Positions 2,669-24,272 of a stretch of 24,272 bases of DNA are shown here, piece by piece. Below the pieces are notes generated by a model. That model was not told the origin of the DNA, did no database searches, and saw nothing but the letters and a program-made list of their open reading frames with translations. The DNA lies in the IMG/VR virus record IMGVR_UViG_3300045973_000417, positions 1 through 24,272 of that record; one strand, 5' to 3'. Origin of the DNA: a virus. Position numbers and translations under genes: made by a program. How positions within the stretch are numbered: position 1 is the stretch's first letter; each line of letters opens with the position of its first letter.

Positions 2669-2669
2669 A

Positions 2670-4031
2670 TTATATAGTGTCTATTAATCCTGTATTGTCT
2701 TCAGTATTCTCTAATAACTCTTCAGCCACAAATTTTCCACATTCAATACAAATACGATCCTTTTCTTTTGGATCTTCTGTCTTATCAAACTGCGTAAGGT
2801 ATTCTTCCATTTTATCAGTAGCCTCTTTATGAAATATAACCTCATTCTTTTCGATTTCAGCATGTTGTTCTATTTTATCATCCTTTACTGTAATAACTGG
2901 AATACCTTTACTTGTAACAGCATCACCTAACTCGCCATCATAGTGATTTAAATTTTTATGTAATGCACCATCTGGGATTACATTCATTTTTCCACCACCT
3001 GCATATTTAACAACTTCACCATCCATTGCCTGTCCTTCTTGAGCTTTTGGTATTTTCTTCTTTACCTTATTCTTAAGATTTCGTAATTTTGCTGGATTAA
3101 TTTTAGTTCCTAATTTTCCTGATATAATTTGATTTTTATACGGATTATTTCCCCCTGCAGTTAATGCTTGTCTGTTTTTTGCGTTAATGTCTTGGGTAGA
3201 ATTCATACCTGCCATTACATTTTGCTTATCTTGCTGTATATTATTAAATTTTAAAGCATTACTTGTGTCAGCCCTTTCTACAGCAGATCTTCTATTATTT
3301 ACAAGATCTCCTTTCTTTTTACCCCCAAACAGTTTACTCATAAAGTTTGTAACTCCTCCAATTTCTGTTGAAGCAATACTTTGATCAGCAGAATATCCTT
3401 TTGTAACTTCCCCTGCGAGATCTACATCAGATCCATCAATTTTTGCTTTTGATGCTGCATTTAGAATTTTTACAGGTAACAAAGCACCTGATCCTAAAAC
3501 TGAATTCAGGAGTTTATCTCCTGTATTACTGGCATTATCAATTCCACCACCAAGTGCATTGATTCCTTTATTTAATAATCCAGATACTTTCATTGCTCCA
3601 CCTATTAAAGTTCCATAACCAGGTATACTCATTGCAGCATTTGAAGCAGCATCTCATCCTGCATCAATTCCTCCAGTAAGAGGATCATTTGCAGTTTTAT
3701 CTGGGATTAAAGAAGATAATAAATCTACTCCTTGTCCTACTAATGCTCCTTTTTGTTCTGTACCTATTCCTTTTCAAGAACTTTTCAAAGTACTTCCAGT
3801 ACTCTTCTTTGCAGTCCCACCATATTGATTTTTTTCTCATTGAGTAGAACCTATTGCAGGTATTGGCATAAATTTTTGCATCATCTGTTCAAATGCACTT
3901 CCTTTGGAAGCATCTTGAAATCCTAATAATCCAGGAATTCCTTTTGCTTTGGAATTACCTGGAGTATTATAATTAAGGGATGAATCAGAAGGAAATTCTT
4001 CTCATTTCCCTGTATATGGGTTAATTGGCAT
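2670..4031 (-). CDS. Conserved crAss-like structural-type protein (recoded), 453 aa
   Basis: The start MPINPYTGKW is 11 bases after the muzzle-type gene stop. All four Trp residues, in the first ~135 residues, are TGA; none are TGG. The middle is Gly/Ala/Asn-rich with hydrophobic stretches (around residues 134-165) that could form helices or insert in a membrane. The C-terminal third carries the motif KMNVIPDGALHKNLNH, then SKGIPVITV, then an acidic segment IEKNEVIFHKEATDKMEEYL. I recall this arrangement as recurrent in crAss-like genomes without a firm function. Its position right after the muzzle gene suggests an internal or ejected virion protein or a tail-tip component. I cannot assign a molecular role. 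Confidence 0.75.
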
Positions 4032-4042
4032 TATAATTAATT

Positions 4043-7000
4043 TTATGCGTAACTTACTGTGAATAATGTTCTAATTGCATTAACAATAGAATGTTTCTTT
4101 CCATCATATTTCACTCTTATTTTTATATATTTGTCTCTTATTCTCATTTCACTAACTTTTGAAAATCTTACTTCGCCTTCTTTTAAATAAACATATCTTA
4201 TTTTAATTGGTTGAATTTGGATATCTCAAGAATCTTCTACATAATGCATATTTCCTTTAGTTCTTCCATAATTTACAAAATCTTTTCCATCTTGATTTGA
4301 TAAAACTCTATCTTCTCCATTTCATGTATCATTTATTAATACATTATCAGAAGTAAAGTCTTCTCAAGCAATTGTGTCTAATGGACTAGTTGTTTTATCC
4401 TTAAGAACAAATGGTAATTTTAAAAACTTAAATGTGGAATAGTCAGCTGGATTTATTCAAGTAGGAACTGGAAATTCTGGATGATCTATTAAAAGTTGAG
4501 AAATAGTTTTAGATAATAAATATCTATATCCATTTAAAACTTTGTCTAGAGCTGCCTGATATAATGCAGTATTTATCTTATATGAACCATTTGATTCTAA
4601 TGTATAAGTAAAATCATCCTGTGCTAAACTATAATTGTAAAGAGGTTCGTCATTTAATCAACTAATAACTTCTTTATATAAATGTCAATCATATCCTTCT
4701 CCTACAATCTCAAAATTGAAAGAATCTGGTTTAGTTTTATTTGAAATAATTTTTAAATTATCAAATATTTTCTGAACTCCGGGAACAGCAGCTACAACAA
4801 ATTCAAATTCAAATGGATGTTGTTCTTCGTATCATACTGTATGTTTTATATTAGCAACCTCATCAGCTGTTCCAGCAAAACCATGTTTATATAATTTATT
4901 TTCTCCCTTTGAATGAATTTCGGTATTTGCAAAAGTATAAAAAATATTATTAATATTTTCTGAAAATTCCGGAAATCATGTATTCCTCGTTACCCAATGG
5001 TTTAAAAGTTCATTTCAACATAAATGTCATTGTTGTTGTTCATAGCTGAAAACAAATAACACATCTTGCTTAAATGCATTATAATGAGATTTAATACTAT
5101 AGCTTCCAGGTTTATTTAACACATCAGTAACTCTTAAACTTATGTTATCATTTAAGAATTTCTGAATTTTCATATCAGAAATGGTTTCAAATGTTTTTCC
5201 ATTAGTTCTTCAAACTCTTTTTCCAATAGTATCTAATCCATAAATAAATCTAGGTGTAGATATAACTGAATCTGCCCAAGTTGTTCCAAATGTATTGGAT
5301 AATACTTTTGGATTTTTTGGTAAAACAGTTTCTGTGTTTATATAAACATTTTCACCTTGCGCATTCATCATCATTGCACGTTCATTAACAGGAATCATTA
5401 AAACTCCATGTTCCATAACTGCAATTAATGTCCCATACCATTCTACTAAAGAAACTAATGCACCATATTCCATGGTGTAATCTTGAAAATTCTTAGATTT
5501 AAATACTCTGTTACCATTTTTAAATGCACCTTCTTGAAGTAATTCTGAATGATAAATTCTATTTGCAAAATTAGTTTTAATAAAAGGAACATCAGGGATT
5601 TCAAAATAATATCTATCTGATAATGAATGATTTATTCCATTATTCATAACAGTAGACTCTGGCAATTTATTAGTACTTTTCGCTTCTTGTAAAGGATGGA
5701 AACTACGTTTTACTTTATGTACAGCTTCTTCTAATGGTCTAGAAAAATCAACATCTCTCATTGCAAGATTTACATTACTACAAATTTTAAATGTAACCCA
5801 GTGTCCTAATGCTACTGCATTTACATCTGGTCGATTAATTTTCTCTGAGCCAAATGTTCCATTAGCTTCTGAATATTTTTTAAACTTCTTTCCATCAGGT
5901 AAGCATAATCAACTTAAAGCTACTGAACCATCTGTTGCTTCATCTAATCCACCATAAGTAAATAAATTTAATAATTTTTTATATTCAAATGCAGTTCCCG
6001 CAGGTAAATTACCAGGAGTACCACTGCCATCACCATTATCTGCTCTAACTAATCCTTGTAATGCGCCTGCAACAGTAATTGATATATGTTTAGAAGTTTT
6101 AACTTTGAAATTCTTATATCAAGTATAAGGATCAACTATTTGATTATTTGTGGGTAATTCTGGATCTATAAAATTCCACAACACTCTATGAGTATATGTA
6201 TTTATAAAACAATCTCCTCTATAATGAGCAGGTGAATCTGAATATTGATCAATTTCATCTCAAGTTAATCTATCACCAATTGCCATAAATGGAGAAGAAT
6301 CATTATATCTAATTCTAAAATAATTTTTTCAATTACTGAAATCATAACCTTTTTGGAATATATTATAATGTTGTCCAAAGACAAGATTATTATAACTACT
6401 TCCGATAAAAGTATTAAATCCTCCTCTTATTTTAGTTACTCCATTTGACCAAGCAGTTTCAGCATCAGCATTGCTATTATCTAAAGAATTAATATTTCCT
6501 AAAATTGGATCTTCAAATTTTCATGCAATTGTTGGATCTCCCGCTTTTGAACAGAATTTACCATCAGCGCCATTATTAATCAATTCGATTTCTGGTTCAA
6601 CTAATAATAAATTTGTTGCAATAGTTTCAGTTGAAAGTACATTATCCTTAACTAAATCTCCTAAATTAAATAATGTTTTAGTATTTGCTCCATCATTAAA
6701 AATCTTTCCACCTGAACTATATTTAAATTTCTTTAGAATAAATTCCGAAGAATTAAAATAATTATTGAAAATATCAGTTCTTACGCAAGCTTCTGGACAT
6801 AATAATGCATTATTTTGTGTATCTCCTGGTTGGATCTCAAACAAACTTCTTCCTAAAATTGGATAATTATGACTATCGACTTTTAAAAATGATTCTGAGA
6901 AGAATTTTCTTTGATTAACTACCCCATTATTATATTGTCCAAAAATTATGGGAGTATAGGATTTTTTAGCTGTAGCAATGCCAATAGCTTGAGTTAATAA

Positions 7001-8419
7001 TGTTGGTATTCTTTTTTGTCTTACGAAGAAAAATCCTTTTGTTAAGTTACTTAATCCATAAGCTCCAGTAGTAGCATCTTGATTAATTATATTATTTTGA
7101 AACTTAAATCTAAGACCTATTGGTTTAATACTATCAGCTCCATTAAATACATCTATGTCAGAATTAATTTTAAAAACTCCTTTGATATTCTCTTTATTAT
7201 CTTTTAAATTAGACTTCTCTAAAATAAAATCTTCGCCAAAATTTAGTTCTTCACTTCTATTATAACTATCAAATTCTGTTATACTTGACAATTCTTTAAT
7301 ACCCCTTATATTAAATACTGGGGATAAGGTATAATCTGGTAATATATAAATAATCCCAACTCTATAAATATCTTCATCCCAATATCCTAATTTGTAATAA
7401 ATATTTTTTGTATTATAATATTCATACCCAATATCAGGATTATTTTCTGTATAAGAAGCACTTAAATTTCCAATAGTTTCATCATATGCTAATTCTGGAG
7501 TAATTAATAAACTATATTTCTCTAAAATCTTAAATAATTCATAACTCTTAGTAATATTTCCAACAAAAGTTAAATTTTGACAATTTGCATTCGTTTGAGC
7601 TGAATCGAAATTAGCATACTGAATATTTATTTCAGAATTATCTATTTCAATATGATTTTCAAAACCAGTAATAGTTAATTCTGTAGAAGTTCCTCTAATT
7701 TTAAATTTATCAGTAATTTTATAGCTTTTCAATTGATCTAATAAATTATTCCCTGAGTGTCTGGTGTAATAAATATTAATATAATCATAAGCCAGATCAA
7801 GATTATTAATTTGAAATTTAATAACTTTATCACTAACTTCATCCATTTGCCCTCCTCTTATAGAAGATGGATGATTTACTGCACCAATATGACAAATAAC
7901 TTTACCTGATTCAGATATAAAATCTGATTCATTTCCGTCACTATCAGCTAATTTAAAATAAAAATTATAACTACCAACTGGTAAATTACCACCACTCTCA
8001 ATACCTTTAAAATCTAATGTTACAATTGAACGAACAGTTTTAACTAATCCTGCTTCAATTTTAAAATTTTCTTCCGTATAGATATTAGTATCTAGGTTTC
8101 CCTTCCTATCTCCGATTTTATAAGTATTTGAATCTACTAAATAAAATCTAGAATTTACTATCTTTAATGGATTTTTAGTGTCATTAATTATTATATTTGC
8201 AGAATCATCGTATGATGATTCTACATCTATAATTAATGGTGAATTAATATCAATTCCTGCAGAATCTGCATTTAAAGATAAATTTACTAAATCTATGGTA
8301 CCATCATTTCTAAAAACCTTTAAATTTTGTAAAGGCTTATATTTATACAATAATTTTCCATCTTCAGGAAAAGCATGTATCGTATTGTTTATTTGTATTA
8401 ATTGTACTGGTAAACTCAT
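4043..8419 (-). CDS. Muzzle-type giant tail protein (recoded), 1458 aa
   Basis: One continuous frame of 1458 residues when TGA=Trp, with 16 TGA and 7 TGG Trp codons; the standard code breaks it into many pieces. Near residues 139-172 it has the motif GIESGGNLPVGSYNFYFK followed by DSDGNESDFISESG, then MDEVSD and DYINIYYTRHSG. I associate these with the large conserved tail protein of crAss-like phages, whose virion structure assigns the distal 'muzzle' of the tail barrel. Later parts contain long beta-rich stretches, e.g. FGTTWADSVISTPRFIYGLD. The length suits a muzzle protein. It starts 10 bases after the stabilization gene and is followed 11 bases later by the next gene. It likely forms the tail opening through which DNA and cargo leave. 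The exact name is less sure than the family. Confidence 0.82.
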
Positions 8420-8429
8420 AATTTATAAT

Positions 8430-10430
8430 TTAGTAAGAACCACAAGTGGATGAATTAGAACATGCTCCAGATGAATACATATCAATTGGTGGCGTAACAT
8501 ATGCCATTCCATCATATGTAAACAGTGGCGTAGATGTAGAACATAATGAAAGGAACCAATTAAATCCTGAACTATCTACAAAACTCAGAAAATCATAATA
8601 TGGCGAAGTAGTTATATAAACTGTCCCGGGAATAGTATATGATATTTGTAGAACATTTTGAGTTTCATTTTCAAGTATTCCAATAGGTATTGAAAGAGCT
8701 CAACATGTTCCTATTCCTTCTGGTACAGTAGTTGTAGGCAATGTTTCACAAGATTGAGAAGGTGCTAAAACTATTTGTTGTTGAAATAATTGGAGAACAT
8801 ATTCATCAATATTAGTATTTAATGGTTCAGTAATTAAAGCTTTATTATCAGGCCCAACTGTAAAATGATTAATAATTGTTGGAGTCCCAAAAGTTTCTGC
8901 ATATGAATTAGTTAATCCATCAAGTAAAAATATGTAAGCAGTACTTATATCTGTAACTTTTAACTCATAATTTAAAAATTCTCCATTATTATTTTGTAAC
9001 CAATATTCCTGAAATAACATATTTCCATTAATACAGACATCATTTTGTGGGCTGAATTTAATGTTATCATAACTCGTATTTATAAGAACGGACCCATGAA
9101 TTGTGTATTTATCTAAAAACTCTTTAGGTAAATCATTTTCTGTATATTCTGTAATATCCCCTTCCAAAGCAAGGATGGGAGTAATAACATATTCTAATAA
9201 TTTATTATTATAATTTGCACCACTAATATCATAAATAATATAAGATGCTGAGTTATTTATAAAGTCTACATCTCATTCATCATATATTTCTACAGATTTA
9301 TCTAAATATATTTTAACTCTGGCTTTAGTGATCTTAACATCTCCAGTTGTTAAATTAATAGAGTTATGAGCAAGTCCTTGTAAATTTAAACTAAAAGAGT
9401 AATAATTTTGTGGAGTTAATGTAGTTGTTGGTAATACAGTAGTTGGTAATATAGTAGTAGTTGGTAATACAGTAGTCGTTGAAGCAGGAATATGTGGATA
9501 TCCAAAAAATTCTGAAATATTAATTGTTGGAATACCAACAACTTTAAAGATTTTTAAATCCTCTATTTCTAATGATAATGCTAACTTTCCTTTATACTGA
9601 GAAGGACAATAATATTTAAAATTACTGTCAGTAAATCAATATTCTCCAACATTAAAATGTAAATTTTTAAATGAATAATATTTTGACCAAATATCTTGCG
9701 TTAAATCTAAATATCCATTATTTAATTGATGATATAATTTTACTTTGTAAAATTTTGGCACAAATTGTATCCCTTCAACACCTTGTGAAATATTTTCTGC
9801 ATGTACAGCTAAACTATTATTAAAAACAATGTATCTCCCTGTTTTAAAATCAGTTGTATTTATAACACTGTATTTATATAATTCTGGAGTTACAAGAGTC
9901 CCAAGATAACTTTTACTATCAGAAGCTTCTGGTGAAGGATAACTACCAAATTCAATCATCCCAAATTTGTTGTTATAATCTTCTTCAGTTCCAATAATAT
10001 CCCAATATTTATTTGATTCTTCTGGTAGTTTTGGTATTGTACTATCAAAATAATCTTTTCTTTTATAAAATGTTTTAATATCTGATCATACTGGTTTAGA
10101 ATATACTAAACTATCTTTTATATATGAGGTACCATTTACTCATATTGGTATATTATTAACATCTATCTCTGGTAATTTTCGAGAAGCTATATATAAAACT
10201 CCACCAAATTCCTTCATTCCTAATGGTTGAAATCCTTCAGATAAACGAACAACTCCTTCCACTGTTTGTATTGGAGCATTACCCGCATCATTTTGTAAAC
10301 TTAATTCATCACCATTAAAGGTAATAAACGTTGCGTTTACTGCGTCTGTTAGGACATTATTAGGAGTTGTTAATGGATTTAAATCATAAACCAATCCTTT
10401 ATCAAAAGTATTAACTGATTCCTTTTTCAT
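8430..10430 (-). CDS. crAss-like tail stabilization-type protein (recoded), 666 aa
   Basis: The start MKKESVNTFDKGLVYDLNPL, followed by TTPNNVLTDAVN and GFQPLGMKEFGGVLYIAS (residues 67-83), is the recognisable N-terminal signature of the protein usually annotated as stabilization protein in crAss-like phages. A second landmark is MIEFGSYPSPE around residue 158. Five Trp are TGA (e.g. plus 10140-10142, 9636-9638 and 8700-8702) and four are TGG. A 24-residue Thr/Pro/Leu linker lies at residues 317-340. A second short TLPTTTVPE stretch and several Cys (SQSCETL, GIGTCW, GACSNSSTCGS) occur near the C-terminus. It starts inside the upstream gene (20-base overlap), indicating coupled translation. 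It probably sits in the tail next to the muzzle and ring proteins. Confidence 0.82.
9411..9482 (-). repeat. Thr/Pro/Leu microrepeat coding for a linker
   Basis: Within the stabilization-type gene the motif TTT-V/I-LP repeats about four times (residues 317-340). In DNA this shows as repeated units of the form GTATTACCAACTACT on the minus strand. Such low-complexity linkers usually join beta-rich tail domains and change length by slippage. The run of Thr residues also makes it a conceivable O-glycosylation target. Confidence 0.75.
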
Positions 10431-11442
10431 TTTCTTTTATTAATTGCTGTCATGTTTTATTTGAAGGAATAAATTTTAAATCTCTTACTTCTCCTAAATA
10501 TTCTAAATTTCTTAATTTTAATTTTGGTGCTCAAAAAGACCATCCTTTAAAAGTATCTCTTTTAAATCTAAATACATATAAATGATTTGATTTATATCTT
10601 AATTCTTCCTGAATTTTTCTTGGAATAATGCTTGTAAAATGAGTGATTTTTCTTGCCACTCTATTTACCTCACATCATTCCTGAAAAAGTCTATCATTTA
10701 AACCAATATAATAATATCCATCAAAATCCTTTCTCTCTCATTGAGCTATTTTTCGTAATTTTTTATCTCGTCTAATACTATATTGTTTTATTTGATATGG
10801 TATATTTAAAGATAAAGCTCCGATATATGCAACACAATCAATATGTTTTTTAGTATTAATAGAAATAGCACATCCGTAAGTAATAGATGAATGCATTCTT
10901 CTAAATCCATGCATTAAAATTCTTTTTAATTCTTTTAATGTTAATTCTGGGAATTTTTCATGGACTTCTGGTAAAATATCATTTATGGTTAAATCTTTTA
11001 TTGTATAAAATTTTTCTCCTGAATTTATTTTATCCAAAAATTTCTGTTTTAAGGCACCTCCGAGATACACAGGGTAAGATTTTTGGTATGCCTTAGCCTT
11101 GTAATAGTACTTCATAAAATAACCTGTAAAATCGGATTCTATAAAATCAATTTCAGAAAACCGACCACATTGTCTTTGTTTCACAAATTGTTCTTCCAAC
11201 ACAATCTCAAAGTCAAGATAACCTTCGACTGAATATGGAATTAAAAATCTTACTTTTTCATCAATCATTTTATTAATAATCAATCCAAAACAATATTTGA
11301 ATGGATCTGCTACTGCATCTGCATAACTACTAGTAGATCCATATCTTTTAATAAATCATGCTCATTTTTTATCAGTTACTTTCTTTGTTGGGTTTGTATA
11401 TAACTCTTCACAAGTTAGTCCATGATTAAAAAATATCCTCAT
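10411..11442 (-). CDS. Conserved crAss-like tail/connector-region protein (recoded), 343 aa
   Basis: Six Trp are TGA and one is TGG. The standard code leaves only an internal fragment of 181 residues that starts at an internal Met; the true start is the ATG at 11442 (MRIFFNHGLTCEELY), which overlaps the previous stop in TAATG. The protein is rich in Lys, Arg and aromatics, e.g. KKWAWFIKRYGS near the N-terminus and FKRDTFKGWSFWAPKLKL near the C-terminus. No enzyme motif is seen. Position between ring-type proteins and the stabilization protein implies a tail assembly or virion role. The last 20 bases overlap the start of the next gene. Confidence 0.72.
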
Positions 11443-12146
11443 TAACGAACAGGTTTATATGATTTACCAAATCGTTTTCTATCCCAAGAACTTCCAACAT
11501 TTAAAATCTCATCCATTTCATTTTGATTAATATACTCTGGGATTCTTGCTTGAGAACATAAACTTTTTCATTTCTGTTCTAATATTTGTGCTAACTGCAT
11601 TAAATTTCCATCTCTTGAAACTAATGCACTTCTAAAAGTATAGGTATATGCAAGAAATGCTGCTATTGCATCCAATTCTTTCACATTTAAATAAGGCAAA
11701 CCTTCTTCATCTGCAATTACTCCTTTATATAAAATATGTACACTTCTAAAATTATCAGATAGAAATATTTTCTGTCCTTCTTGTCTATATTTAATATACT
11801 TACCAGAAGAATATAATGTACCTGTATTATATTTCCTAGATTCTATATAACTTTCTATTCATCCACTTTGTGAATTTCCAGGTAATAATTGATTAGAAGT
11901 TTTTTGGTAATCTTCATAATCTGCTGTAACTGCTTCAATTATATCAACATTACATGGAAGATCTACGTAATAATTTAATGATACATCTTTAAGAGGTTCT
12001 GTTATATATTTATATAATCTAGTTTGTTTATTTCCTATTCTATCTCATCCAATTAAACCAATTGATTCGAATTCATCTGGATTAAGCTCTAATCCATATA
12101 GTTCTCTGGCTTGCGTGTAAGCCGTATTAAAGTTGTAACTTGCCAT
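11442..12146 (-). CDS. Ring / head-tail connector-type protein, P22 gp4-like (recoded), 234 aa
   Basis: This gene is invisible in the standard code because TGA codons cut it; with TGA=Trp it is 234 residues (three TGA, one TGG). It starts MASYNFNTAYTQARELYG. A helical C-terminal half contains LNVKELDAIAAFLAYTY and LMQLAQILEQKWKSLCSQAR. The alpha-helical layout, length and location between ring-type genes fit the P22 gp4-like tail accessory/connector proteins described in crAss-like phages, which stack as dodecameric rings below the portal. The gene starts 2 bases after the previous stop and ends in a one-base TAATG overlap. The specific ring number cannot be told from sequence alone. Confidence 0.72.
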
Positions 12147-12148
12147 TA

Positions 12149-12817
12149 TTAACGTGGTGTTTGATCATTAGGGTGAGGTTGAGCCATAAGCTGTCTGTAA
12201 TAACGAATTTTCTTTTCAGTCAATCTTTTCTTCACTTCTGCAGAAATAAAAGATAAATTATCTACTTCTTCTGGAGTGCAACATTTATATTCTGATAATT
12301 GTCTTGGATCTTTAAAAATAGCAATAACTGAAATCTTTTTCAACATAGGGGCATTATAAATTCATGCATCATACATATTATTATCATTAGGAGTAGGCTC
12401 AACATAAACATAGGGTTTATCTGCGCCTCTTCTTAAATATTTATGATATTGAAAAGCAGTATTAGTATATATTTTTAATTGTACTTCTCTATCTATTGAT
12501 CCAATAAATTCAATTGCTTCACTTTGAAGATCATTAACTGTTTGTGGCATTTGGAAATGTAATTGTGGAGTAGTAAATGAATCTGTACTACATGGACATT
12601 TATCCAAAGACTCACAATCCACATCAATACAATTAATTGACATTAACAAATCATTTCTTGGAACAAGATTTTTTAAAGAATATTCTTTTATAATCTGTAA
12701 TCTTTCATCTACTATATCGTCCATTAATTGATCAAGTGAAAGACTTGGAGTACTTGTAATTCCTCCCAATCCTCCAACTATATCATTATATATTGCGGAA
12801 GCTAATTTTCTTATCAT
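12149..12817 (-). CDS. crAss-like ring protein-type gene (recoded), 222 aa
   Basis: The first 151 residues run to a TGA at 12362-12364, and reading through joins NMYDA-W-IYNAPMLKKISVIAIF in one 222-residue protein. The segment IEFIGSIDREVQLKIYTN, then FQYHKYLRR and NAPMLKKISVIAIFKDPRQL, is one I recall as conserved in the ring region of crAss-like phages. There is a Cys cluster at C63, C68, C74 and C76 plus CC later in the protein, a possible metal site. It is the first gene after a strong terminator hairpin and starts a tightly packed tail gene set. The role is inferred from context. Confidence 0.75.
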
Positions 12818-12831
12818 AATAGTTTATTAAA

Positions 12832-14900: not shown

Positions 14901-15965
14901 TTAATTTATATATTCAAAATTATATCCATGAGATTGTTTACATCTACCATTTAATACACTAGCACATCCTGGAAATTCTTTAATTGCATCTGACACAGAC
15001 TCAAAGATTTTTATAACATCATTATTAGAATTAATCATTTTAACTTGTCTTTTTGCATTTGAATTTTTTACAATGTTTAAAGTTTTCTCCGGATTATCAT
15101 TTCTGGTTCATAGAAAACCATTACAAGCATGTTTTAATTTAATTGCAGCACTAATACTTGATAATTTTAAATTTAATTTATCTTTAGCTTCCTTGATAGT
15201 TTTAAAACTGTCAATATATAGACCGTCTAAAGAATACCTATTTAGTTTTCTAGATACTTTACTAACTATGATCTGTAATTTATCATACTTCTCAGTACTA
15301 ATAAAATATCCAGATATTTTATAATTTGCATGAATGGTTCTATTTAAATTTGCATTATTAGTGTCAAGAAATTTAATTACATCTCCTGCTTTTTCAAATT
15401 CATTTATCAATACTCCATCAGAGTTATAAAGATAATAATTATTTGTAGAATGTAAATGATAATCTTTAATATTAATTATTCCATCATAACTTCAAAGAAA
15501 TCCTTTACAAGTTCTCTTATTATTAATGGCCTCATAAATATTTGGACTATTACAATCTATAATTTTACTAACTTCTAATACAGAATCATAAACTTTAAGT
15601 AAGTTACCATTAAAATCAAATTGATATATAACTTGTTGTGGTCTAGGCCTTCCTTTTCCACCAAGGGAAACATTATAAGTTTGATCACTATTTATAAATT
15701 CTTCTGTTACTATATCTGATTCCTTATTATAAGCATCTTCTTCATTTTCAAAAACATATAAAATATCTCTTTTAAAATTTGAAACACCATGCTTTATTAA
15801 AGCATAATGAAAAGGAGCTACAGGATAAGTTAAATAATGAGTAGTATTAATAAAGAAACCTCTTCCTAAATAATTATCAAATATATTAGGATCTTCAGTC
15901 TTATGTACACCAATATAAATTTTATTGTTAATTAAACAAGTAGTTTTATAAACAATATATTTCAT
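14901..15965 (-). CDS. GIY-YIG homing endonuclease with NUMOD1-like repeats (recoded), 354 aa
   Basis: The N-terminus reads MKYIVYKTTCLINNKIYIGV (a degenerate 'GIY' as YIV, then an intact YIG), then NYLGRG, FKRDILYVFENEEDAYNKE and YNVSLGGKG, the usual order of a GIY-YIG nuclease domain (about residues 1-110) with a candidate catalytic Glu in that last helix. The rest has repeated DNA-binding modules ending in CKGFLW (Trp158) and CNGFLW (Trp286), of NUMOD1/IENR1 type; both Trp are TGA (plus 15492-15494 and 15108-15110). The standard code would split it into three pieces. It is a free-standing insertion between two virion genes, with 18 and 23 base gaps. It probably cleaves related phage genomes lacking the insert. 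Confidence 0.9.
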
Positions 15966-15983
15966 AAAAAATTAATATTTTTG

Positions 15984-16889
15984 TTATTTTTTATTAACAG
16001 GGCCACCTTTAGGTTTTAAAGGCACACCTTCTACTAAATCAGATATATCAGATTCAAGTTCAGCACCTTCCTCAGCAATTTCTTTTCTGGTCATTAACTC
16101 AGGATAAGTTTCTCTTTTAATCGAATCTGTTAATTTCTTATATCGAATATCTCTTAAAAATGTAATTGTCGCTTCTATTGATCCACCAAGCATTTTATCA
16201 TCATATTTATAAATACCGTCAGAACGTCTAATGACTCCTCTTTCAACAGCATCTAAAATAAACAAATGCATCTTCCAATCCTCACCTTCATAAAGATCAA
16301 TAATCTTCTTTGGTGTTTTTGAAGCAAGTTCTAATAAATAATCTAATACATCTGCAGGCACAGCATTTTGTAAATTTCTTCCTAATACCCTAGCTTTTTT
16401 AATTCTTTCTTGTTCAGAATCTTCATAGATATATCTTTCTGCTGAGAAAATAACTTGTTTTTTATTAACCTTAGCTTTAGTAATTTCTCCTGGTCTTTCA
16501 ACATATAAATCAGCAACACCATATCTTTTGGCTCCACCGTCTATAATTAAATTACCTTGATCATCACGTTGATATCTATCCTTTGCAATCCAATTGCAAA
16601 ATTCAATTGATTCCCAATGGGCTTTATCTACAATATCATCTAAATCAAATCTTGTTCCATCAACAATTTGGAAAACCTTATCTGCTGGAACAAAATGTTT
16701 TTTACCTTTACTCATTTGATCAATATCATCTTCTGATAAAATCATTTCAGTATTATCAACAGGACCTTTTACTGGTTTAACGCAATCAGGAAGTCTACCT
16801 GTTCTAGGATTGGGACATGGTTGTATATAATATATTTGATTTACTTTACCATACACACTTCTCAGAAGTATTTCATTACTCATATTCAC
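15984..16889 (-). CDS. MCP-adjacent conserved virion-type protein, 301 aa
   Basis: Complete frame of 301 residues, three TGG Trp and no TGA, ending in TAA. It starts MNMSNEILLRSVYGKVNQIY; a second Met at residue 3 is an alternative start. The N-terminal segment includes IQPCPNPRTGRLPDCVKPVK, with two Cys that could form a small turn. The C-terminal half is helical and charged (RYIYEDSEQERIKKARVLGR; KLTDSIKRETYPELMTRKEI) and ends with a Lys/Pro tail. No enzyme signature is visible. It lies directly downstream of the MCP, behind a terminator-like hairpin, where crAss-like phages carry small head proteins. A capsid-associated role is plausible but not proven. Confidence 0.65.
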   Translation of the reverse strand: MNMSNEILLRSVYGKVNQIYYIQPCPNPRTGRLPDCVKPVKGPVDNTEMILSEDDIDQMSKGKKHFVPADKVFQIVDGTRFDLDDIVDKAHWESIEFCNWIAKDRYQRDDQGNLIIDGGAKRYGVADLYVERPGEITKAKVNKKQVIFSAERYIYEDSEQERIKKARVLGRNLQNAVPADVLDYLLELASKTPKKIIDLYEGEDWKMHLFILDAVERGVIRRSDGIYKYDDKMLGGSIEATITFLRDIRYKKLTDSIKRETYPELMTRKEIAEEGAELESDISDLVEGVPLKPKGGPVNKK

Positions 16890-16935
16890 TTTTATTTTTT
16901 ATATTTACGTATATAATCTAATTAATATTTATCTA

Positions 16936-16960
16936 AATAAAGGAGGAATTACTTCCTCCC
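16936..16960 (-). terminator. Terminator-like hairpin after the major capsid gene
   Basis: On the minus strand GGAGGAA and TTCCTCC (plus 16942-16948 and 16953-16959) form a 7-bp perfect stem with a 4-base loop, followed by TTTATTTAGAT. It begins about 15 bases after the TAG of the MCP gene. The weak T-run suggests partial termination that would favour MCP over downstream genes, or an RNA-stabilising 3' hairpin. Confidence 0.6.
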
Positions 16961-16974
16961 TTATTATTTTATTT

Positions 16975-18405
16975 CTAAACTTCTTCAGCGATGAAGGATT
17001 TGTATGGTGCAAAAGCAGCCAATCCTGCATAACCAGCAACAATTAATTTAGATCCAGCGACTGGAGAACTAACAATACCACTTGTGATACCATCAATTCC
17101 ACCAACTCCAGGATATTTAGAAGTAACAAATTCTGCACCAGCTAAAGTAAATCCAGCGATTGCAGGTTGATTTGTACTCATATCAGGAGTCATATCTAAA
17201 CAAATTCCGTAAGCTTTAGTAGGATATTCTTTTGATAAAGCACGGTCTACCATGAATGTAACTTCGTTACCAGCAATTTGATATGTAGTGAAAGTTCCAC
17301 CAACTTTAATTGGGTTGTCAACTTTCATCATAGCGTTTGCATCTCTAGAATACAACATAGTAGGAGTAGATCCCCATAATTTCAACCAATCTCCAAGAGT
17401 TGTGTTAATTTGTCCCCAGAATCTATCATTAATTACAAATGTATAATGATTTCCTGTTGGATTAACAGCTTTTTGGTTCATTTGCTCCATGATAGTATTA
17501 ATAACATTAATATTCAGTTTTGCAAATTTGAATTTGGATGCGAATCTTTCAATCTGTGGAACAAGACCATCACCAGCGATTAACGGACGACCATCTTCTG
17601 TTAAAACAGTAGATTTTCCGTTAGTATCCATAGTGGTTTTTTGCCATAATAGAGCGTTATTTTTTACTGTATTAAAGTTATCCAGTAAGTCTTTTTCCAT
17701 TTTGTTCAATTTGAACAATTTTTCTTTCATCTCACCAGTACCATCACCTTGGGCGATTTTAATAAACTGATCTTCCATCTGTGCATAACGTGCAGAGTAA
17801 GAAATATCATTTCTATGCTCAGTTATCCATTGACGATGTTTCTCAATGTTACTTTGGTATTTAGTGAATCCTTCCTCATGATATTCAGGTTGGATGTTTG
17901 CCAAGAAACGAGTTGTCATTCCTAATTGACATGCTGATGAATCTAATACTGCTGAATAATCAGCATCAATTAACTGTACGGTATATACCCAGAAGTTATC
18001 AGCTTGTCTTTCTGGAGTTGCTTTTACAATACATTGTTGACGAGAACCGTCAATCTTAAAGGTGTCATATTTCTCATAGTATCTCTCTTTGAAATACATG
18101 GTAATATCTGCACCGATAGCACCTGTTCCAGATGGAGCAGCTGCAAACTCAACACGTTTAACAAATTCAACATCAATTTCCCATTCAATCATGAGAGAAT
18201 TAATTGGTTGGAATTTATTAACACTTTTTGAGTTATAATAAATATTCATTAAACCTTCAGTAAGGAATGTGGCAGTGTTTTGAGTATTCATTCTTGCCAT
18301 AACTCCCATCATCTTTGGTCTAGTTCCTAAAAATTTGTAGAAATCTTCATAAGTTCTACTGTGTGCCATTTCAGGCTTTACGTTAACGTAACTTGCTACA
18401 ATCAT
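16975..18405 (-). CDS. Major capsid protein, crAss-like, 476 aa
   Basis: A 476-residue protein ending in TAG. It starts MIVASYVNVKPEMAHSRTYE. The stretch LLWQKTTMDTNGKSTVLTED followed by GRPLIAGDGLVPQIERFASK is a crAss-like MCP signature, and the length fits the HK97-fold capsid proteins of this group (about 490 residues). Seven Trp codons are all TGG, so this most abundant protein needs no recoding. It lies 10 bases after the scaffold-like gene and is followed by a hairpin terminator. It assembles the icosahedral head. The assignment rests on motif recall and on its position between an acidic scaffold-like gene and the head/tail genes. Confidence 0.88.
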   Translation of the reverse strand: MIVASYVNVKPEMAHSRTYEDFYKFLGTRPKMMGVMARMNTQNTATFLTEGLMNIYYNSKSVNKFQPINSLMIEWEIDVEFVKRVEFAAAPSGTGAIGADITMYFKERYYEKYDTFKIDGSRQQCIVKATPERQADNFWVYTVQLIDADYSAVLDSSACQLGMTTRFLANIQPEYHEEGFTKYQSNIEKHRQWITEHRNDISYSARYAQMEDQFIKIAQGDGTGEMKEKLFKLNKMEKDLLDNFNTVKNNALLWQKTTMDTNGKSTVLTEDGRPLIAGDGLVPQIERFASKFKFAKLNINVINTIMEQMNQKAVNPTGNHYTFVINDRFWGQINTTLGDWLKLWGSTPTMLYSRDANAMMKVDNPIKVGGTFTTYQIAGNEVTFMVDRALSKEYPTKAYGICLDMTPDMSTNQPAIAGFTLAGAEFVTSKYPGVGGIDGITSGIVSSPVAGSKLIVAGYAGLAAFAPYKSFIAEEV

Positions 18406-18415
18406 TTTTTAAATC

Positions 18416-19390
18416 TTAAAATAAGTCGTGTATATTTTCTTTTCTTTTTGATGCGTTTTGCACAACGACATTAGGCTTAACTGGTTTTTTCAATCTTGTT
18501 ATCTCTGCTTCATAAGCATTTTTTATTGCATCAAAGGCTTCTTTACCATAACGCAAATACCAAGCAGCTTCGTAAAGTTTGGTTGGGTTATTTAAATCTT
18601 TATAAAAATTACTTAATCCTTTATCATCTAATTCTAACAAATAAGATAGAGTCTCATTTTTATCTTCATCTTCAAGATCAATTCCATGAAACTCATTTAT
18701 TTTAGTAGCAATATCAACCATTTGATCTGCAAATTGATTGTATTCCTGTTCTCTAAGTTGCTCAGCTTCTTGAGACTGGGTAAGTTTATACTGATCTTCA
18801 AGAGTTTTATACTCTCCTCTTAATTTTGTAACTTTTTTATTAAAAATCTCTGGATTTTTTAATTCTTTTTCAAGTTCAGCAACTAATTCATCATCTGTTA
18901 ATTCAAACTTATTTTTCATATCTAAAAGATACAATTCTTGATCATCATATGCGTCTATATCATATGTTGCTTCAGCAGGTTTACCCAATTCTGAAGCAAT
19001 TGAGTCTTTAAATTGTTGTAAGAAAGCTTCAACTGTTAAATTATTTGATCTTAAATGATTTAATAATAATATTTCTTCCTCATCTAAATTAGGATTGGTT
19101 ACGTTATCTTCATTTCTTGCATTTAAAATCTCTAGTTGTTCTTCTTTAGTTAATCCGTAAAAGTCAACTTCTTGTTCTTGATCTTTTTCATCTAATATTT
19201 TAATTTTTGCATTACTTATTCCCCTTAATTTTAAGAGTTCATCTACTAATGTAGGTTCTTTAGTAATAGGATCTTCTCCTTCTAATAAAAAATCATCATT
19301 ACTTAAATTTTCACCTGAAACAGGTTCATTATTCTCTCCTCCAACTACAGAACTTTCTTCAAAAAGGTCATCGAATTCTTCCATTGTCAT
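18416..19390 (-). CDS. Acidic scaffold-like protein upstream of the capsid gene, 324 aa
   Basis: A 324-residue, strongly acidic, coiled-coil-prone protein. The first 40 residues are Asp/Glu-rich (MTMEEFDDLFEESSVVGGE), and the middle holds long heptad-like runs of Glu, Leu and Lys (e.g. FELTDDELVAELEKELKN at about 166, then LRGEYKTLEDQYKLTQSQEA). It has one TGG Trp and no TGA. Its place 10 bases upstream of the MCP, acidity and helical character are those of a head scaffolding protein. No protease triad is seen. The ATG at 19384 (MEEFDD) is an alternative start two codons in. Function is inferred from context. Confidence 0.65.
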   Translation of the reverse strand: MTMEEFDDLFEESSVVGGENNEPVSGENLSNDDFLLEGEDPITKEPTLVDELLKLRGISNAKIKILDEKDQEQEVDFYGLTKEEQLEILNARNEDNVTNPNLDEEEILLLNHLRSNNLTVEAFLQQFKDSIASELGKPAEATYDIDAYDDQELYLLDMKNKFELTDDELVAELEKELKNPEIFNKKVTKLRGEYKTLEDQYKLTQSQEAEQLREQEYNQFADQMVDIATKINEFHGIDLEDEDKNETLSYLLELDDKGLSNFYKDLNNPTKLYEAAWYLRYGKEAFDAIKNAYEAEITRLKKPVKPNVVVQNASKRKENIHDLF

Positions 19391-19474
19391 TAAACATTAA
19401 TTCATTATATATTTTTTTATCTATATTAACTTGTTTTTATTTTTTTTGAAATAATTAAAATTAATTTATAGTCA

Positions 19475-19482
19475 CAAAATTA
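19475..19482 (-). promoter_or_regulatory. Candidate Bacteroidota-type promoter (-7 element) before the scaffold-like gene
   Basis: On the minus strand TAATTTTG matches the Bacteroides -7 consensus TAnnTTTG, about 85 bases upstream of the ATG at 19390, inside a 172-base gap that has no other coding content. No clear -33 TTG is seen at the right spacing, and in sequence this AT-rich such matches can arise by chance. Confidence 0.35.
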
Positions 19483-19562
19483 ACATGAAAATACTTATAA
19501 AATATAAAAATATCTAAAAATTTATATTTTATGAATAGAATTCATTGTTAATAATTTTTTTA

Positions 19563-19778
19563 CTATTCTTTTGTTAATTTTGCAGAAACACCCATAGCAG
19601 CAGTAGCTACTAATACGTATTTACAAATATTTAAAATTATTTGAGGAAGTTCAAGAGTTAAAGCAGTATTCATTGTTCAAATACTTAAGGCGCTCCCCCC
19701 AAGTGTTATTGCCAAATTTTGAACTTTTACTCAAAAAATTGGACTTTTTGCTTTTCAGCGTTCGATTAATTCTTTCAT
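19563..19778 (-). CDS. Holin-like small membrane protein (recoded), 71 aa
   Basis: This 71-residue gene appears only if TGA is Trp. All three of its Trp codons (W8, W16, W34; plus tca at 19755-19757, 19731-19733 and 19677-19679) are TGA, and it ends in TAG. The start is MKELIERWKAKSPIFWVKVQ. Two hydrophobic segments follow, about residues 20-40 (NLAITLGGSALSIWTMNTAL) and 44-65 (ending LVATAAMGVSA), with a charged end KLTKE. The charged N-terminus with SPxFWxKVxN plus two membrane spans resembles small holins of Bacteroides phages. It is the first gene of the minus-strand operon, behind a promoter and inverted repeat. It probably permeabilises the inner membrane at lysis; no endolysin is visible in the window. 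A structural membrane protein is the alternative. Confidence 0.72.
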
Positions 19779-19805
19779 TTGGTTATTTTTAGTTATTTTT
19801 TATAA

Positions 19806-20068: not shown

Positions 20069-23000
20069 ATGAAATATGATTTTGTAGAAATTGGAACATC
20101 GGATTTCGATACTCTTATCGAAACAGCAGATGACAATACGGTCGGCCTTAGCATTGAACCGTTAAAGTATTACCTAGATAGACTACCAGATAAGCCTAAA
20201 GTAACTAAACTAAATATGGCAATTTCCTCTGAGGAAAATTTTATGGATATATATTATATCCCAGAAAACCAAATAATTAAACATAAGTTACCATATTGGG
20301 TTCGTGGCAGCAATTCTGTTGGACAGCCCCATAAATTTACAATTCAAGAAATAGGTCAAGAGTTATATGATCAAATTGTAAAAACAAAACAAATACCTTG
20401 TACTACTTTAAAAAAACTTGTAGCGGATTATGATGTTACTGGTATTTATTTTTTAAAAATTGATACTGAGGGAATGGATCATATAATACTAAAAGACTTA
20501 GTTGAGTTATGCATTGCTGATAAAGAATTGAAACCTAAAAAAATTAAATTTGAACGCAATCCTAGCGTGTCTAATATAAAAGAAACAGATGAAGCATTAG
20601 AAAGTTTAAAAGCATTAGGTTATTCTATAACATTAGCTGATAATGATGGAACTGCTTCTTTAAGTTTAATTCCTAGAATTATACATCAAACTTTTAAAGA
20701 TTCTAATTTGTCGCCTGATGTACAAAAAGCTGTCAATGGTCTCAGAAAAATGAATCCTACTTTTGAATATAGATTCTACAATGATCAAGATTGTATTGAT
20801 TTTATCACTAATAATTACCCTCCAGAATATTTAGAAGATTATTTAAGTATAAATGCTAATTATGGATCAGCACGTGCTGACTTTTTTAGATACTTATTAA
20901 TGTATAAAGTAGGTGGGGTATATTTAGATATTAAAAGTACAACTTTAGAACCATTAGAAGAATCCTTACTTCCAACAGATGAATATATTTTAACTCATTG
21001 GGAAGGTAAAGATTGGAATAAAGAATTGAATTATGTACACGGAGAATTCCAAAATTGGAATATCATCTGTCGACCAGAACATCCTTTTTTAAAGAAAGTT
21101 ATAGAAGAAGTTAGAAATAATTTACATAACTACTCTGGGGAATTAGGTAAAGAGGCTGTATTACATTTAACTGGTCCAATTGCATATAGCAAAGCTATTT
21201 TAAAAATATTGGATAAATATCGTTTAATGACTATAGATTCTCCTGTAAGAGAATTTGGATCAGAAATAGAGGTGGGATTAATTTATATGGCAACTGCTGT
21301 CCATCATCATTTTCTATATCCAAATAGTTATCATAATACAGAGCCTATAGTAGAAATTAAAAAGACTAAAGAAGCTAGAGCTTGGGTTTTATATGCAAAT
21401 AAAGCTTATATCAAAACTGTACAAGCATGTGTTAGATCGCTCAATATGTTTAGCACTGCTAAAGTTATTGTTTATCTTATTAACTGCGATGAAAAAATTA
21501 ATGGAGCGGTAACAGTCAATTGGAAATGTGATGTTCCTGATATCGAACAAAAATCATATATTGATAGAAAAGATCCTGCTACTTATAGAATGCTAATTGA
21601 AAGACCAATGATTGTTAAAAACGCTTTGGTTAATTATGCAAATGAGGTATGTTATGTAGATGCCGATAGTGTGGCTACTCCTCATGTTAATACTATTTAT
21701 AGATATGTTCCACAAGATACTAAATACCCATATTTTGTAGAAAGTATATATGATTATTTACATGTAGACGGACGTGGCGGGGCAGATAGTAGAGACGATA
21801 TGTCTACTACTTTAGAAGCTCCTGCATGTGATTTATTTTCAGTAAATCAATACGTACGTCAAAGATATCGTCAAACAGGATATTTTGTTGCAAATATGAA
21901 TTGTATTGATTTTCTAGATGAATGGTATACAATGTGTACACATCCTGTGGTTATGGCGGATAATGCTGAATATGCTCCATATAATGAAGAAACTATTGCT
22001 AATGTACTTCTATGGAAATATAATTTTATGGGCGGTCTTCCCTATATCTATTGTAATACTGGATTAGATAGACTCTCTAAAATAATAGATAATCAATATC
22101 CTTGGGGAGAACAGGTTGAATCTTGGTTTAGACTTCCAGAAAATGAAGAACAATTATTCTTTTTGCATGGAGAAAAAGAGGCAACAAGAATGAACCAAAT
22201 GGCAGATATGCTTAATCACACAATTTTTAAACAACGAACACACAGTAAAATGAATATATTATTTTTGGCTCCTCATCTTTCAACTGGAGGAATGCCTGCA
22301 TTTCTATTAAAACGAATAGAAGCTTTACAACAAAATCCAGAAGTTGAAATCTATGTAGTAGAATGGCAATGTGTTAGTCCACATTTTGTTGTTCAAAGAA
22401 ATAAAATAATAAAATTAGTTAAGAATTTTTATTCTCTTGGAAATGATAAAAATGAACTAATGGAAATTATTAAAACTAATCGAATTGATATAGTTCATAT
22501 TGATGAAATGGTTGAACATTTAGACGGTTGTTCTTTTGATTTAAAAAGTCAATTATATTCTCCAGATAGAACATGGAGAATAATTGAGACTTGTCACAAT
22601 GTAGTTTTTAATCCAGATGGATCAAAACAATTTCATCCTGATGCTTATGCTTTCTGTACTCCGTATCATCTTGATGTTTTTGAACGTATGCCTTCTTATA
22701 AAGAGGTTATACAATTTCCTATTGATTCTAAACCTGTTACATTTGAAGAACAATTAGCTGCACAAGAATCATTGGGAATGGCTTCAGGAAAATCTCATGT
22801 TTTAAACATAGGACTTTGGACTAAAGGAAAGAATCAAGGAGAAGGACTTAAAATAGCTCGTAAATATCCACACATGCAATTTCATTTTGTAGGAAATAGA
22901 GCAGGGAATTTTGAAGATTATTGGAAACCATTAATGAGAGATGTTCCTTCTAATGTCACTATATGGGACGAACGAGAAGATGTTGATACATTTTACAGAG

Positions 23001-24272
23001 CAGCAGATATTTTCATGTTTAATTCTACATTTGAATGTAGTCCTTTAGCTCTTCGAGAAGCTATTAGTTATGGACTTCCTATTATTGCTAGAGATTTATT
23101 AGAATATAGGGATATGTTTACTCCTTATCTTCAACCCATCAATACAGACTTAAATTCTATTATTGCACAGTATGATGTTCCTTCTGATAACACAACAGAA
23201 GATTTTGGTAAAAATCATTATGAATTTTATTCCACAGTAATAGAACAACCAGTTGTATTAACAGAAATAGTACCAAATAAAGTTTCTATTACACAACATT
23301 TTGTAAACAATCCTTTTCTGGAAATTACTGGTGACAGTACAGCTGACTATCTAATAAAATTCTTTGACGAGAAAAATGTATGTCATTATGAAAATACTAT
23401 AAAATCAAATCATTGGGTACAACTTAATCGTAGTTATTTTACTAAATGGACTGCAAAAGTATGGGAAGATGGAGATCTTATATACGATGAAGCTTTAAAT
23501 TTTAAAGGAAAGAAAGTATTTATTGTATTTAATAGTCGGGCTTTAGGAGATACCATAGCCTGGATTCCATATTGCTTAGAATTTCAAAAGAAACATGACT
23601 GTAAAGTTTTTGTATGCACATTTCATAACAAATTATTTAAAAGTGTATATCCTGAATTAACATTTGTAGAACCAGGAGGATCAGTGAATGGTTTGATAGG
23701 TATGTATCATATAGGATCACATGATGATCATGATAGTTATAAAGAGCCTGAAAATACTGTAGAAATTCCTTTACAAAAAGTAGCTTGTAATATACTTGGA
23801 TTAGAGTATAAAGAGATTAGACCTAATATTAAGTTTAACAAACTATATAATAAACACAAAAAGAAGTATGTAACTATAGCTACTAATAGTACAGCTGGAT
23901 GTAAATTCTGGCAGAAAGAAAATTGGCAAACTATTATTGATTATCTTGTGAATAAAGGATATCTAGTTATTAATGTGTCTAAAGAAAAGAACGAGTTCAA
24001 AAATTGTACCCAAATATTGGACGATTCTATTAATAATACAATGAATATTATCCATTATAGTGAATTCTTTATTGGATTATCTTCTGGATTAAGTTGGTTA
24101 GCTTGGGCACTTGAAAAAGAAGTCTTAATGATTGCTAATTTTACAAGAAAAGATTATGAATTTAAATGTCATAGACCTGTAAATACATCTGTGTGTAATA
24201 GTTGTTTTAACAATCCTAAGTTTAAATTTGATAAAGGAGATTGGGATTGGTGTCCTATGCATAAAGGTACAT
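20069..24272 (+). CDS. Multidomain methyltransferase-glycosyltransferase protein (FkbM + GT32 + GT-A + GT4 + TibC-like), partial, at least 1401 aa
   Basis: One open frame from the ATG at 20069 to the right edge with no stop of any kind. (1) About 1-200: FkbM-type SAM methyltransferase, VEIGTSD at 6-12 and IDTEG at 131-135. (2) 201-430: OCH1/GT32-type transferase, IPRIIHQTF at 201-209, ARADFFRYLL at 268-277, GGVYLDIK at 282-289, with D-x-K in place of the usual D-x-D. (3) About 436-700: GT-A, GT8-like, with a DAD motif at 531-533. (4) 728-1050: GT-B, GT4-type, with an EX7E motif at E989/E997. (5) About 1110-1401 onward: TibC-type O-heptosyltransferase, GDTIAW at 1160-1165, GLSSGLSWLAWAL from 1336, CNSC at 1376-1379 and GDWDWCPMHKGT to the edge. 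All ~25 Trp codons are TGG. No signal peptide, so probably cytosolic. It likely builds a methylated glycan on a protein or host surface; the acceptor is unknown. An upstream ATG at 20062 is out of frame. Confidence 0.9.
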   Translation, partial: MKYDFVEIGTSDFDTLIETADDNTVGLSIEPLKYYLDRLPDKPKVTKLNMAISSEENFMDIYYIPENQIIKHKLPYWVRGSNSVGQPHKFTIQEIGQELYDQIVKTKQIPCTTLKKLVADYDVTGIYFLKIDTEGMDHIILKDLVELCIADKELKPKKIKFERNPSVSNIKETDEALESLKALGYSITLADNDGTASLSLIPRIIHQTFKDSNLSPDVQKAVNGLRKMNPTFEYRFYNDQDCIDFITNNYPPEYLEDYLSINANYGSARADFFRYLLMYKVGGVYLDIKSTTLEPLEESLLPTDEYILTHWEGKDWNKELNYVHGEFQNWNIICRPEHPFLKKVIEEVRNNLHNYSGELGKEAVLHLTGPIAYSKAILKILDKYRLMTIDSPVREFGSEIEVGLIYMATAVHHHFLYPNSYHNTEPIVEIKKTKEARAWVLYANKAYIKTVQACVRSLNMFSTAKVIVYLINCDEKINGAVTVNWKCDVPDIEQKSYIDRKDPATYRMLIERPMIVKNALVNYANEVCYVDADSVATPHVNTIYRYVPQDTKYPYFVESIYDYLHVDGRGGADSRDDMSTTLEAPACDLFSVNQYVRQRYRQTGYFVANMNCIDFLDEWYTMCTHPVVMADNAEYAPYNEETIANVLLWKYNFMGGLPYIYCNTGLDRLSKIIDNQYPWGEQVESWFRLPENEEQLFFLHGEKEATRMNQMADMLNHTIFKQRTHSKMNILFLAPHLSTGGMPAFLLKRIEALQQNPEVEIYVVEWQCVSPHFVVQRNKIIKLVKNFYSLGNDKNELMEIIKTNRIDIVHIDEMVEHLDGCSFDLKSQLYSPDRTWRIIETCHNVVFNPDGSKQFHPDAYAFCTPYHLDVFERMPSYKEVIQFPIDSKPVTFEEQLAAQESLGMASGKSHVLNIGLWTKGKNQGEGLKIARKYPHMQFHFVGNRAGNFEDYWKPLMRDVPSNVTIWDEREDVDTFYRAADIFMFNSTFECSPLALREAISYGLPIIARDLLEYRDMFTPYLQPINTDLNSIIAQYDVPSDNTTEDFGKNHYEFYSTVIEQPVVLTEIVPNKVSITQHFVNNPFLEITGDSTADYLIKFFDEKNVCHYENTIKSNHWVQLNRSYFTKWTAKVWEDGDLIYDEALNFKGKKVFIVFNSRALGDTIAWIPYCLEFQKKHDCKVFVCTFHNKLFKSVYPELTFVEPGGSVNGLIGMYHIGSHDDHDSYKEPENTVEIPLQKVACNILGLEYKEIRPNIKFNKLYNKHKKKYVTIATNSTAGCKFWQKENWQTIIDYLVNKGYLVINVSKEKNEFKNCTQILDDSINNTMNIIHYSEFFIGLSSGLSWLAWALEKEVLMIANFTRKDYEFKCHRPVNTSVCNSCFNNPKFKFDKGDWDWCPMHKGT

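Follow-up and report, generated by a model that had tools for sequence, protein, structure and literature searches.

The enzyme gene and its modules

The window, that is, the whole stretch of DNA analysed here, corresponds to the complete IMG/VR virus record IMGVR_UViG_3300045973_000417 (24,272 bases). One end of it is occupied by a five-domain glycosyltransferase/methyltransferase open reading frame (ORF; 20069..24272, plus strand, truncated at its 3' side where the contig stops), which is the subject of this work, together with the phage enzyme family to which it belongs. The frame starts with ATG and remains uninterrupted for 1401 codons (20069-24271), up to the end of the contig. Its relatives extend a median of 24 residues beyond the point where the window cuts the enzyme, and the full-length protein should count about 1425 residues, the contig stopping some 24 codons short of the expected stop. 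The single chain combines an FkbM methyltransferase, a domain resembling glycosyltransferase family 32 (GT32), a GT-A domain (GT6/GT8-like), a GT4 domain, and a TibC/Aah-type (BAHT) domain.

The N-terminal FkbM-family methyltransferase module (residues 1-199; 20069..20665, plus strand) is assigned through PF05050, which matches residues 24-186 (E 2.5e-12; 47.7 bits for a gathering cutoff of 22.7). It is followed by the GT32-like module (residues 200-435; 20666..21373, plus strand), carrying the motif GGVYLDIKS and matched by PF04488 over residues 217-303 (E 3.6e-10; 40.9 bits for a cutoff of 23). The 'DXD' site of this module reads D-I-K, both in the window and in the related contig L019, an intact DXD being absent from the two. 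Elsewhere in the family sample, a GT32-like module was only met in the protein shared by contigs L019, L021, and L027.

The third module, a GT-A domain (residues 436-720; 21374..22228, plus strand; motif DAD), has no match in Pfam, and hence no support from a GT8 family profile. Its AlphaFold model (predicted local distance difference test, pLDDT, 93.5) displays a GT-A fold, for which Foldseek returned retaining GT6 enzymes (the ABO enzymes), followed by GT8 (glycogenin), with template modelling (TM) scores of about 0.5, the GT6 enzymes outranking glycogenin. The D-A-D motif (D96/D98) is invariant. The GT4 module (residues 728-1058; 22250..23242, plus strand) is recognized by PF13692/PF00534 (residues 906-1019, E 4e-9), by its EX7E motif (ECSPLALRE), and by its fold. 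A model of residues 436-1401 (pLDDT 86.7) matches GT4 enzymes as well as TibC, the latter with a TMt of up to 0.75. An earlier reading of the letters alone, hereafter the sequence-only reading, had placed five such domains consecutively in one frame of at least 1401 residues, and had suggested domain searches on each segment and structure prediction. Pfam (FkbM, GT32, GT4, and GT9), NCBIfam (TibC, through TIGR04414), PDB, and Foldseek together support all five domains.

The TibC/Aah-type module

The C-terminal module (residues 1071-1401; 23279..24271, plus strand), predicted to consist of a beta-barrel, a GT9-like core, and an iron finger, is the best characterized part of the chain. PF01075 (GT9) matches residues 1257-1355. 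The NCBIfam model TIGR04414 (hepto_Aah_TibC), which is the equivalog of the Aah/TibC autotransporter O-heptosyltransferases, covers residues 1094-1401 with 220 bits, above its curated cutoff of 200. It is also found in all 16 family members scanned (E<=1e-3; best E 5.4e-88), with 251.6 bits for the 674-residue GT4-TibC protein of contig L002. A search of PDB sequences with the module retrieved TibC (4RAP, E 1e-35), an enzyme that glycosylates Ser residues in the passenger domain of an adhesin (PMC4358343).

The TibC residues whose roles have been described, along with those of its thumb (PMC4358343), were mapped onto 64 family sequences. The catalytic base D110 and the sugar-site residues T226 and K230 are each conserved in 64/64 sequences, window included, as are the equivalents of the iron-finger cysteines C339, C342, and C358. 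The third sugar-site residue, W305, is present in the window and in 61 of the 64 sequences (His in the other three). The last iron-finger cysteine, C370, falls beyond the contig end in the window; each of the 63 other sequences has it. Two features of TibC are missing. At the position of R286, which TibC requires, 60/64 sequences have a Thr, the window among them, and the alignments of the module lack the segment forming the beta-hairpin thumb, by which TibC dimers are joined into a dodecamer. Since R286 is lost, the donor may differ from ADP-heptose. The C-terminal module is, thus, best described as a divergent BAHT relative, which should be active, maybe with a different donor and as a smaller oligomer.

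The family assignment also bears on a different role for the enzyme, namely the modification of the host surface, in which lipopolysaccharide (LPS), capsule, or a surface protein would be altered, so as to block other phages or to mask receptors. The GT9 and GT4 families do include LPS enzymes, and phage glycosyltransferases altering host surface glycans are known. Nevertheless, the LPS heptosyltransferase models only score 25 bits on the window module, against 220 for the protein-modifying TibC/Aah equivalog, the family is linked to fibre genes, and the enzyme gene is located in a variable fibre locus of its lineage (see below). Host-surface modification is, for these reasons, an unlikely explanation.

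A phage enzyme family with nested architectures

When a profile of the TibC module was searched against virus contigs, at least 587 stretches were found to encode a relative, of which the best 80 were kept for analysis. Contigs L019, L021, and L027 encode a five-module protein that is complete, with 1447 residues, and L021 belongs to a 318-kb virus record. The sequence-only reading had proposed looking for the same fusion in relatives, and its recurrence in other virus contigs indicates that the fusion is no misassembly.

Among these best 80, the architectures are mostly nested. The rows of the TibC tree comprise GT4-TibC (22), GT8-GT4-TibC (11), X-GT8-GT4-TibC (22), and methyltransferase-GT32-GT8-GT4-TibC (2), where X is mostly an S-adenosylmethionine (SAM) methyltransferase: the 23 N-terminal pieces include 17 Methyltransf_11, 4 FkbM (those of the window and L019 among them), and 1 GT25. 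Most of the relatives of 1130-1180 residues carry other SAM methyltransferases in place of the FkbM module. About 22 changes of architecture are needed on the tree, with a domain order that is almost always nested, and the five-module forms of the window and L019 stand apart on it. Judging from this distribution, modules appear to be often gained or lost, nearly always at the N-terminal end. The main exception to the nested order is a 1495-residue variant (L037, 100-4587), which has a Methyltransf_24 domain and, at its N-terminus, an additional TibC/GT9-like part.

When 84,980 bacterial and archaeal genomes were scanned with the GT4-TibC profile, using patterns that covered the GT4 part only, a single match was obtained, truncated at the contig end of a Bacteroidetes metagenome-assembled genome. 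A bacterial origin of the enzyme was, therefore, not retained, and the GT4-TibC form looks essentially viral from these sequences. It also occurs in a cultured phage, as the Microcystis phage Mel-JY01 (L004) encodes a 1226-residue protein with GT4 and TibC modules (WWT39291.1), annotated as methyltransferase FkbM only.

The surroundings of the five-module enzyme in L021 contain another FkbM, a sulfotransferase, an adenosine 5'-phosphosulfate (APS) kinase, a GT25, an N-acetylglucosamine transferase, and a GT9. Beside the enzyme gene (L021, 11260-15466) are the FkbM, sulfotransferase, APS kinase, and GT9 genes, along with a nucleotidyltransferase gene. This neighbourhood has the appearance of a glycan-building island, whose glycan may also be sulfated.

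A literature search, outside which most subscription papers and preprints lay, yielded no description of phage TibC-like enzymes or of crAss-like virion glycosyltransferases, and within the same scope nothing on glycosylated (Gly-Thr-Ser)n, or (GTS)n, fibres or on such an enzyme in Mel-JY01. This is a large phage family, apparently undescribed so far. The sequence-only reading had regarded the assembly as unusual and as not a described crAss-like module: the second point agrees with this search, limited as the literature was, while the fusion itself is not unique, being one member of a widespread family.

Linkage to (GTS)n tail fibres

Gly-Thr-Ser repeat proteins lie beside the enzyme gene in three relatives recovered early, namely the 66-kb phage L002, the 735-kb jumbo phage L003, and the cultured phage Mel-JY01. 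A DNA pattern for the Gly-Thr-Ser-Gly-Thr-Ser-Gly coding repeat matched 45/45 family records, versus 1/29 random virus contigs (a single match) and 0/5 close kin of the window that lack the enzyme. In the family, the matches are not on the enzyme strand but on the opposite one, save for one additional match in a single record. The corresponding Fisher test (P 1.5e-19) overstates the linkage, as some contigs are close kin and the records are not fully independent. In the reverse direction, a TibC module was found in 16/39 contigs selected for GTSGTSGTSG, versus 0/29 random contigs. Of the 40 loci for which at least 8 kb were available downstream, 35 have a repeat ORF in the flanks that were retrieved.

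The repeats contain 86% Ser/Thr at position X and 83% at position Y, with about 0.5% Pro. They are, by composition, dense in potential acceptor hydroxyls, unlike the Pro-rich collagen helix, and with so little Pro, a true collagen helix was considered unlikely. The repeat proteins are long (up to 3117 residues), and the S74 fibre-chaperone domain was detected in the four fibre C-termini tested, once below the Pfam cutoff. The repeats thus appear to reside in tail-fibre-like proteins. The longest of them (L083, 11507-20860; 3117 residues) comprises more than 2500 residues of GXY repeats, with 1319 Ser and 415 Thr, and adjoins a GT4-TibC gene. In the jumbo phage L003, a 1140-residue protein (3746-7168), the start of which resembles the N-terminal part of the window GT4, adjoins both a GT4-TibC gene and a (GTS)n protein.

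The window itself contains no (GTS)n repeat, as it ends before the enzyme gene is complete. The (GTS)n fibre gene of this phage presumably lies on the minus strand, beyond position 24,272.

Such a linkage might also arise if the enzyme and the (GTS)n fibres were simply common to one phage group and had separate roles, the enzyme then acting on another phage or host protein. Most family contigs are indeed metagenomic phages of unknown relatedness, and the fragments recovered for 23 of the 39 GTS contigs carry no TibC module. However, the linkage is also seen in the cultured Microcystis phage and in the 735-kb jumbo phage, both with distant modules, and it holds for most loci with enough flank. 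The richness of the repeats in acceptor residues and the TibC precedent on the Ser of an adhesin point in the same direction. A linkage by lineage only is, therefore, not likely, though it keeps some weight.

Phage lineage, contig integrity, and neighbouring genes

The closest relative of the window phage is L087, a 172-kb record, in which the major capsid protein (MCP) is 98% identical and the DNA 93% identical over 15968-19789. Bacteroides crAss phages are among the 115 phage records matched by the terminase of L087, and the L087 portal matches crAss001 gp20 (7QOG, E 7e-16). As the window carries neither of these genes, the crAss test was made on L087, through which a crAss-like nature of the window phage is supported. 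The crAss-like setting named in the sequence-only reading is borne out in this way, by the terminase, the portal, and the MCP.

The tail genes of the window (883-12823, minus strand) stay open only if TGA is translated as an amino acid. With TGA read through, 4043-8422 yields 1459 codons and 8430-10436 yields 668. In the tail genes counted, TGA clearly exceeds TGG, and TGA most probably encodes Trp in the late genes. TAG recoding was ruled out, since the tail frames are opened by TGA and not by TAG. The head genes and the enzyme gene, for their part, use TGG only (25 TGG and no TGA in the enzyme). In L087, TGA is rare or lacking in the plus-strand replication genes and abundant in the minus-strand late genes, so the standard code of the enzyme gene fits its strand.

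Homology with L087 does not extend past about 19,789. This limit coincides with the 5' edge of a small minus-strand gene, itself intact (19563-19778). The window could, thus, be a chimera, in which the structural operon is joined near 19.8 kb to the real glycosyltransferase gene of another phage. In addition to this breakpoint, the enzyme was absent from all nine related records searched, including L087, and the exact junction was seen in no second contig. On the other hand, the tetranucleotide distance between the enzyme region and the rest of the window (0.168) lies inside the range obtained for segments within the window (0.15-0.21), the homology ends at the start of an intact gene, no long repeat able to cause a misjoin was found, and, like the enzyme gene, the genes on the early strand of L087 use TGG with hardly any TGA. 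Moreover, the five-domain fusion exists in other contigs, whatever the status of this junction. The search for a terminator or a promoter at the junction gave nothing above chance. A chimera near 19.8 kb was, thus, not favoured after the composition, homology breakpoint, repeat, and code-usage tests; a misjoin is unlikely, and the chimeric explanation has little probability. The sequence-only reading had named a misassembled bacterial contig joined near 20000 as the finding that would undo it: the matching composition, the end of homology at a gene boundary, and the recurrence of the fusion all speak against such a join.

What occupies the site of the enzyme differs between relatives, with Laminin_G-type proteins in L087, a beta-helix protein in L088, and an S74 protein in L097. 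The enzyme, thus, looks like an occupant of the variable fibre locus of this crAss-like lineage, as far as gene content can tell. The corresponding hypervariable locus, upstream of the scaffold gene, lies at 3090-7961 in L087 (a Laminin_G triplet), 5470-8241 in L088, and 4347-6908 in L097.

The other genes near the junction are all on the minus strand. The small gene at 19563..19778 encodes a 71-residue, probably membrane-associated protein with three in-frame TGA (=Trp), and its DNA is conserved in L087. A head gene, probably encoding the scaffold (18416..19390), was assigned by gene order, its L087 homologue adjoining the MCP gene. The probable MCP gene (16975..18405) was also assigned by gene order, with no sequence match in the PDB. 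No matches were obtained in PHROGs for most structural genes of the window, nor in Rfam. Two endonuclease genes lie between virion genes on the same strand. One, of the HNH-like type, is at 1159-1827; the other, a GIY-YIG homing endonuclease gene (15492-15965), belongs to a stretch that L087 lacks.

Proposed function

Taken together, these data make it probable that the protein is a phage enzyme for protein O-glycosylation, the target being the Ser/Thr-rich tail fibre of the phage itself. The TibC-type module would put the first sugar on Ser (or Thr) in the (Gly-Thr/Ser-Ser/Thr)n stretches of the fibre, this priming preceding assembly and taking place in the cytoplasm of the host. Further sugars would be added singly by the GT4, then the GT6/GT8-like, and then the GT32-like modules, before a final methylation of the glycan by the FkbM domain at the N-terminus. 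The outcome would be virions with densely glycosylated fibres. We infer the acceptor, the cytoplasmic action, the C-to-N order, and the role of methylation as a cap; the C-to-N order of the steps after priming is a hypothesis drawn from the nested architecture. The sequence-only reading had envisaged a methylated oligosaccharide on a virion protein or on the host surface. The first option is favoured, by the relation to a family of protein Ser O-glycosyltransferases and by the linkage to Ser/Thr-rich fibres, whereas host-surface modification and superinfection exclusion gain no support.

The nested series of architectures is what a sequential chemistry would allow, the last step being dispensable. 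A more ambitious proposal is that the family represents a widespread one-protein assembly line, in which the domain order from C- to N-terminus is the order of synthesis, lineages add or lose terminal steps and thereby diversify the glycan, and a dedicated (Gly-Thr-Ser)n fibre serves as acceptor, giving a mucin-like phage coat. This extension is tentative and somewhat doubtful.

Several observations weigh against the proposed function. Within the enzyme, the Arg needed by TibC is replaced in most members, the thumb needed for the dodecamer is missing, and the second Asp of the DXD is not there in the GT32 module. At the level of the genomes, the close relative L087 is devoid of the enzyme, no (GTS)n repeat is found in the window, and the linkage could come partly from shared phage ancestry. 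Finally, an easy truncation at the N-terminus could alone give the nested architecture.

Comparison with known systems and significance

The nearest characterized enzymes are TibC and AAH (BAHT, TIGR04414; 4RAP/4RB4). The phage module shares with them the fold, the catalytic Asp, the sugar-site Thr, Lys, and Trp, the four-Cys iron finger, and a linkage to a repetitive, Ser-containing surface protein. It differs by being phage-encoded and placed behind up to four further catalytic domains, by the replacement of R286 by Thr and the lack of the beta-hairpin thumb, and by its acceptor, likely a (GTS)n fibre instead of a beta-helix autotransporter.

Viral precedents also exist. In the chlorovirus PBCV-1, the protein A64R unites glycosyltransferase and O-methyltransferase domains, its proposed substrate being the glycan carried by the major capsid protein (PMC4691112). 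It is, likewise, a viral multi-domain protein joining a glycosyltransferase to a methyltransferase, but it has three domains, comes from a eukaryotic virus, carries its methyltransferase at the C-terminus, and has no TibC-type priming module. In Mimivirus, the bifunctional enzyme L230 glycosylates a repetitive collagen-like protein of the virus itself (PMC4691112), much as the phage enzyme is proposed to modify a protein of its own phage. Nevertheless, L230 glucosylates hydroxylysine, has a hydroxylase domain, and relies on an unrelated acceptor chemistry.

Among phages, the Mel-JY01 protein WWT39291.1 similarly combines GT4 and TibC beside (GTS)n genes, with another N-terminal arrangement and a distant TibC module. 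Fold matches also point to the Actinobacillus serotype 3 capsule multienzyme (8QOY) and to WbbM (6U4B), which gather several glycan-building activities in one chain. These two enzymes make capsule or O-antigen polymers, and not protein-linked glycans.

The glycosylation of phage virion proteins is little known, and the present family brings together hundreds of enzymes built on a characterized protein-glycosyltransferase module and tied to a specific fibre type. It offers a route to annotating hundreds of phage 'FkbM' or 'glycosyltransferase' genes, together with their (GTS)n partners. If the proposed function is true, one polypeptide making a whole methylated glycan would constitute a tool for glycoengineering, and the study of adsorption, receptor mimicry, and fibre stability would change in crAss-like, jumbo, and cyanobacterial phages.

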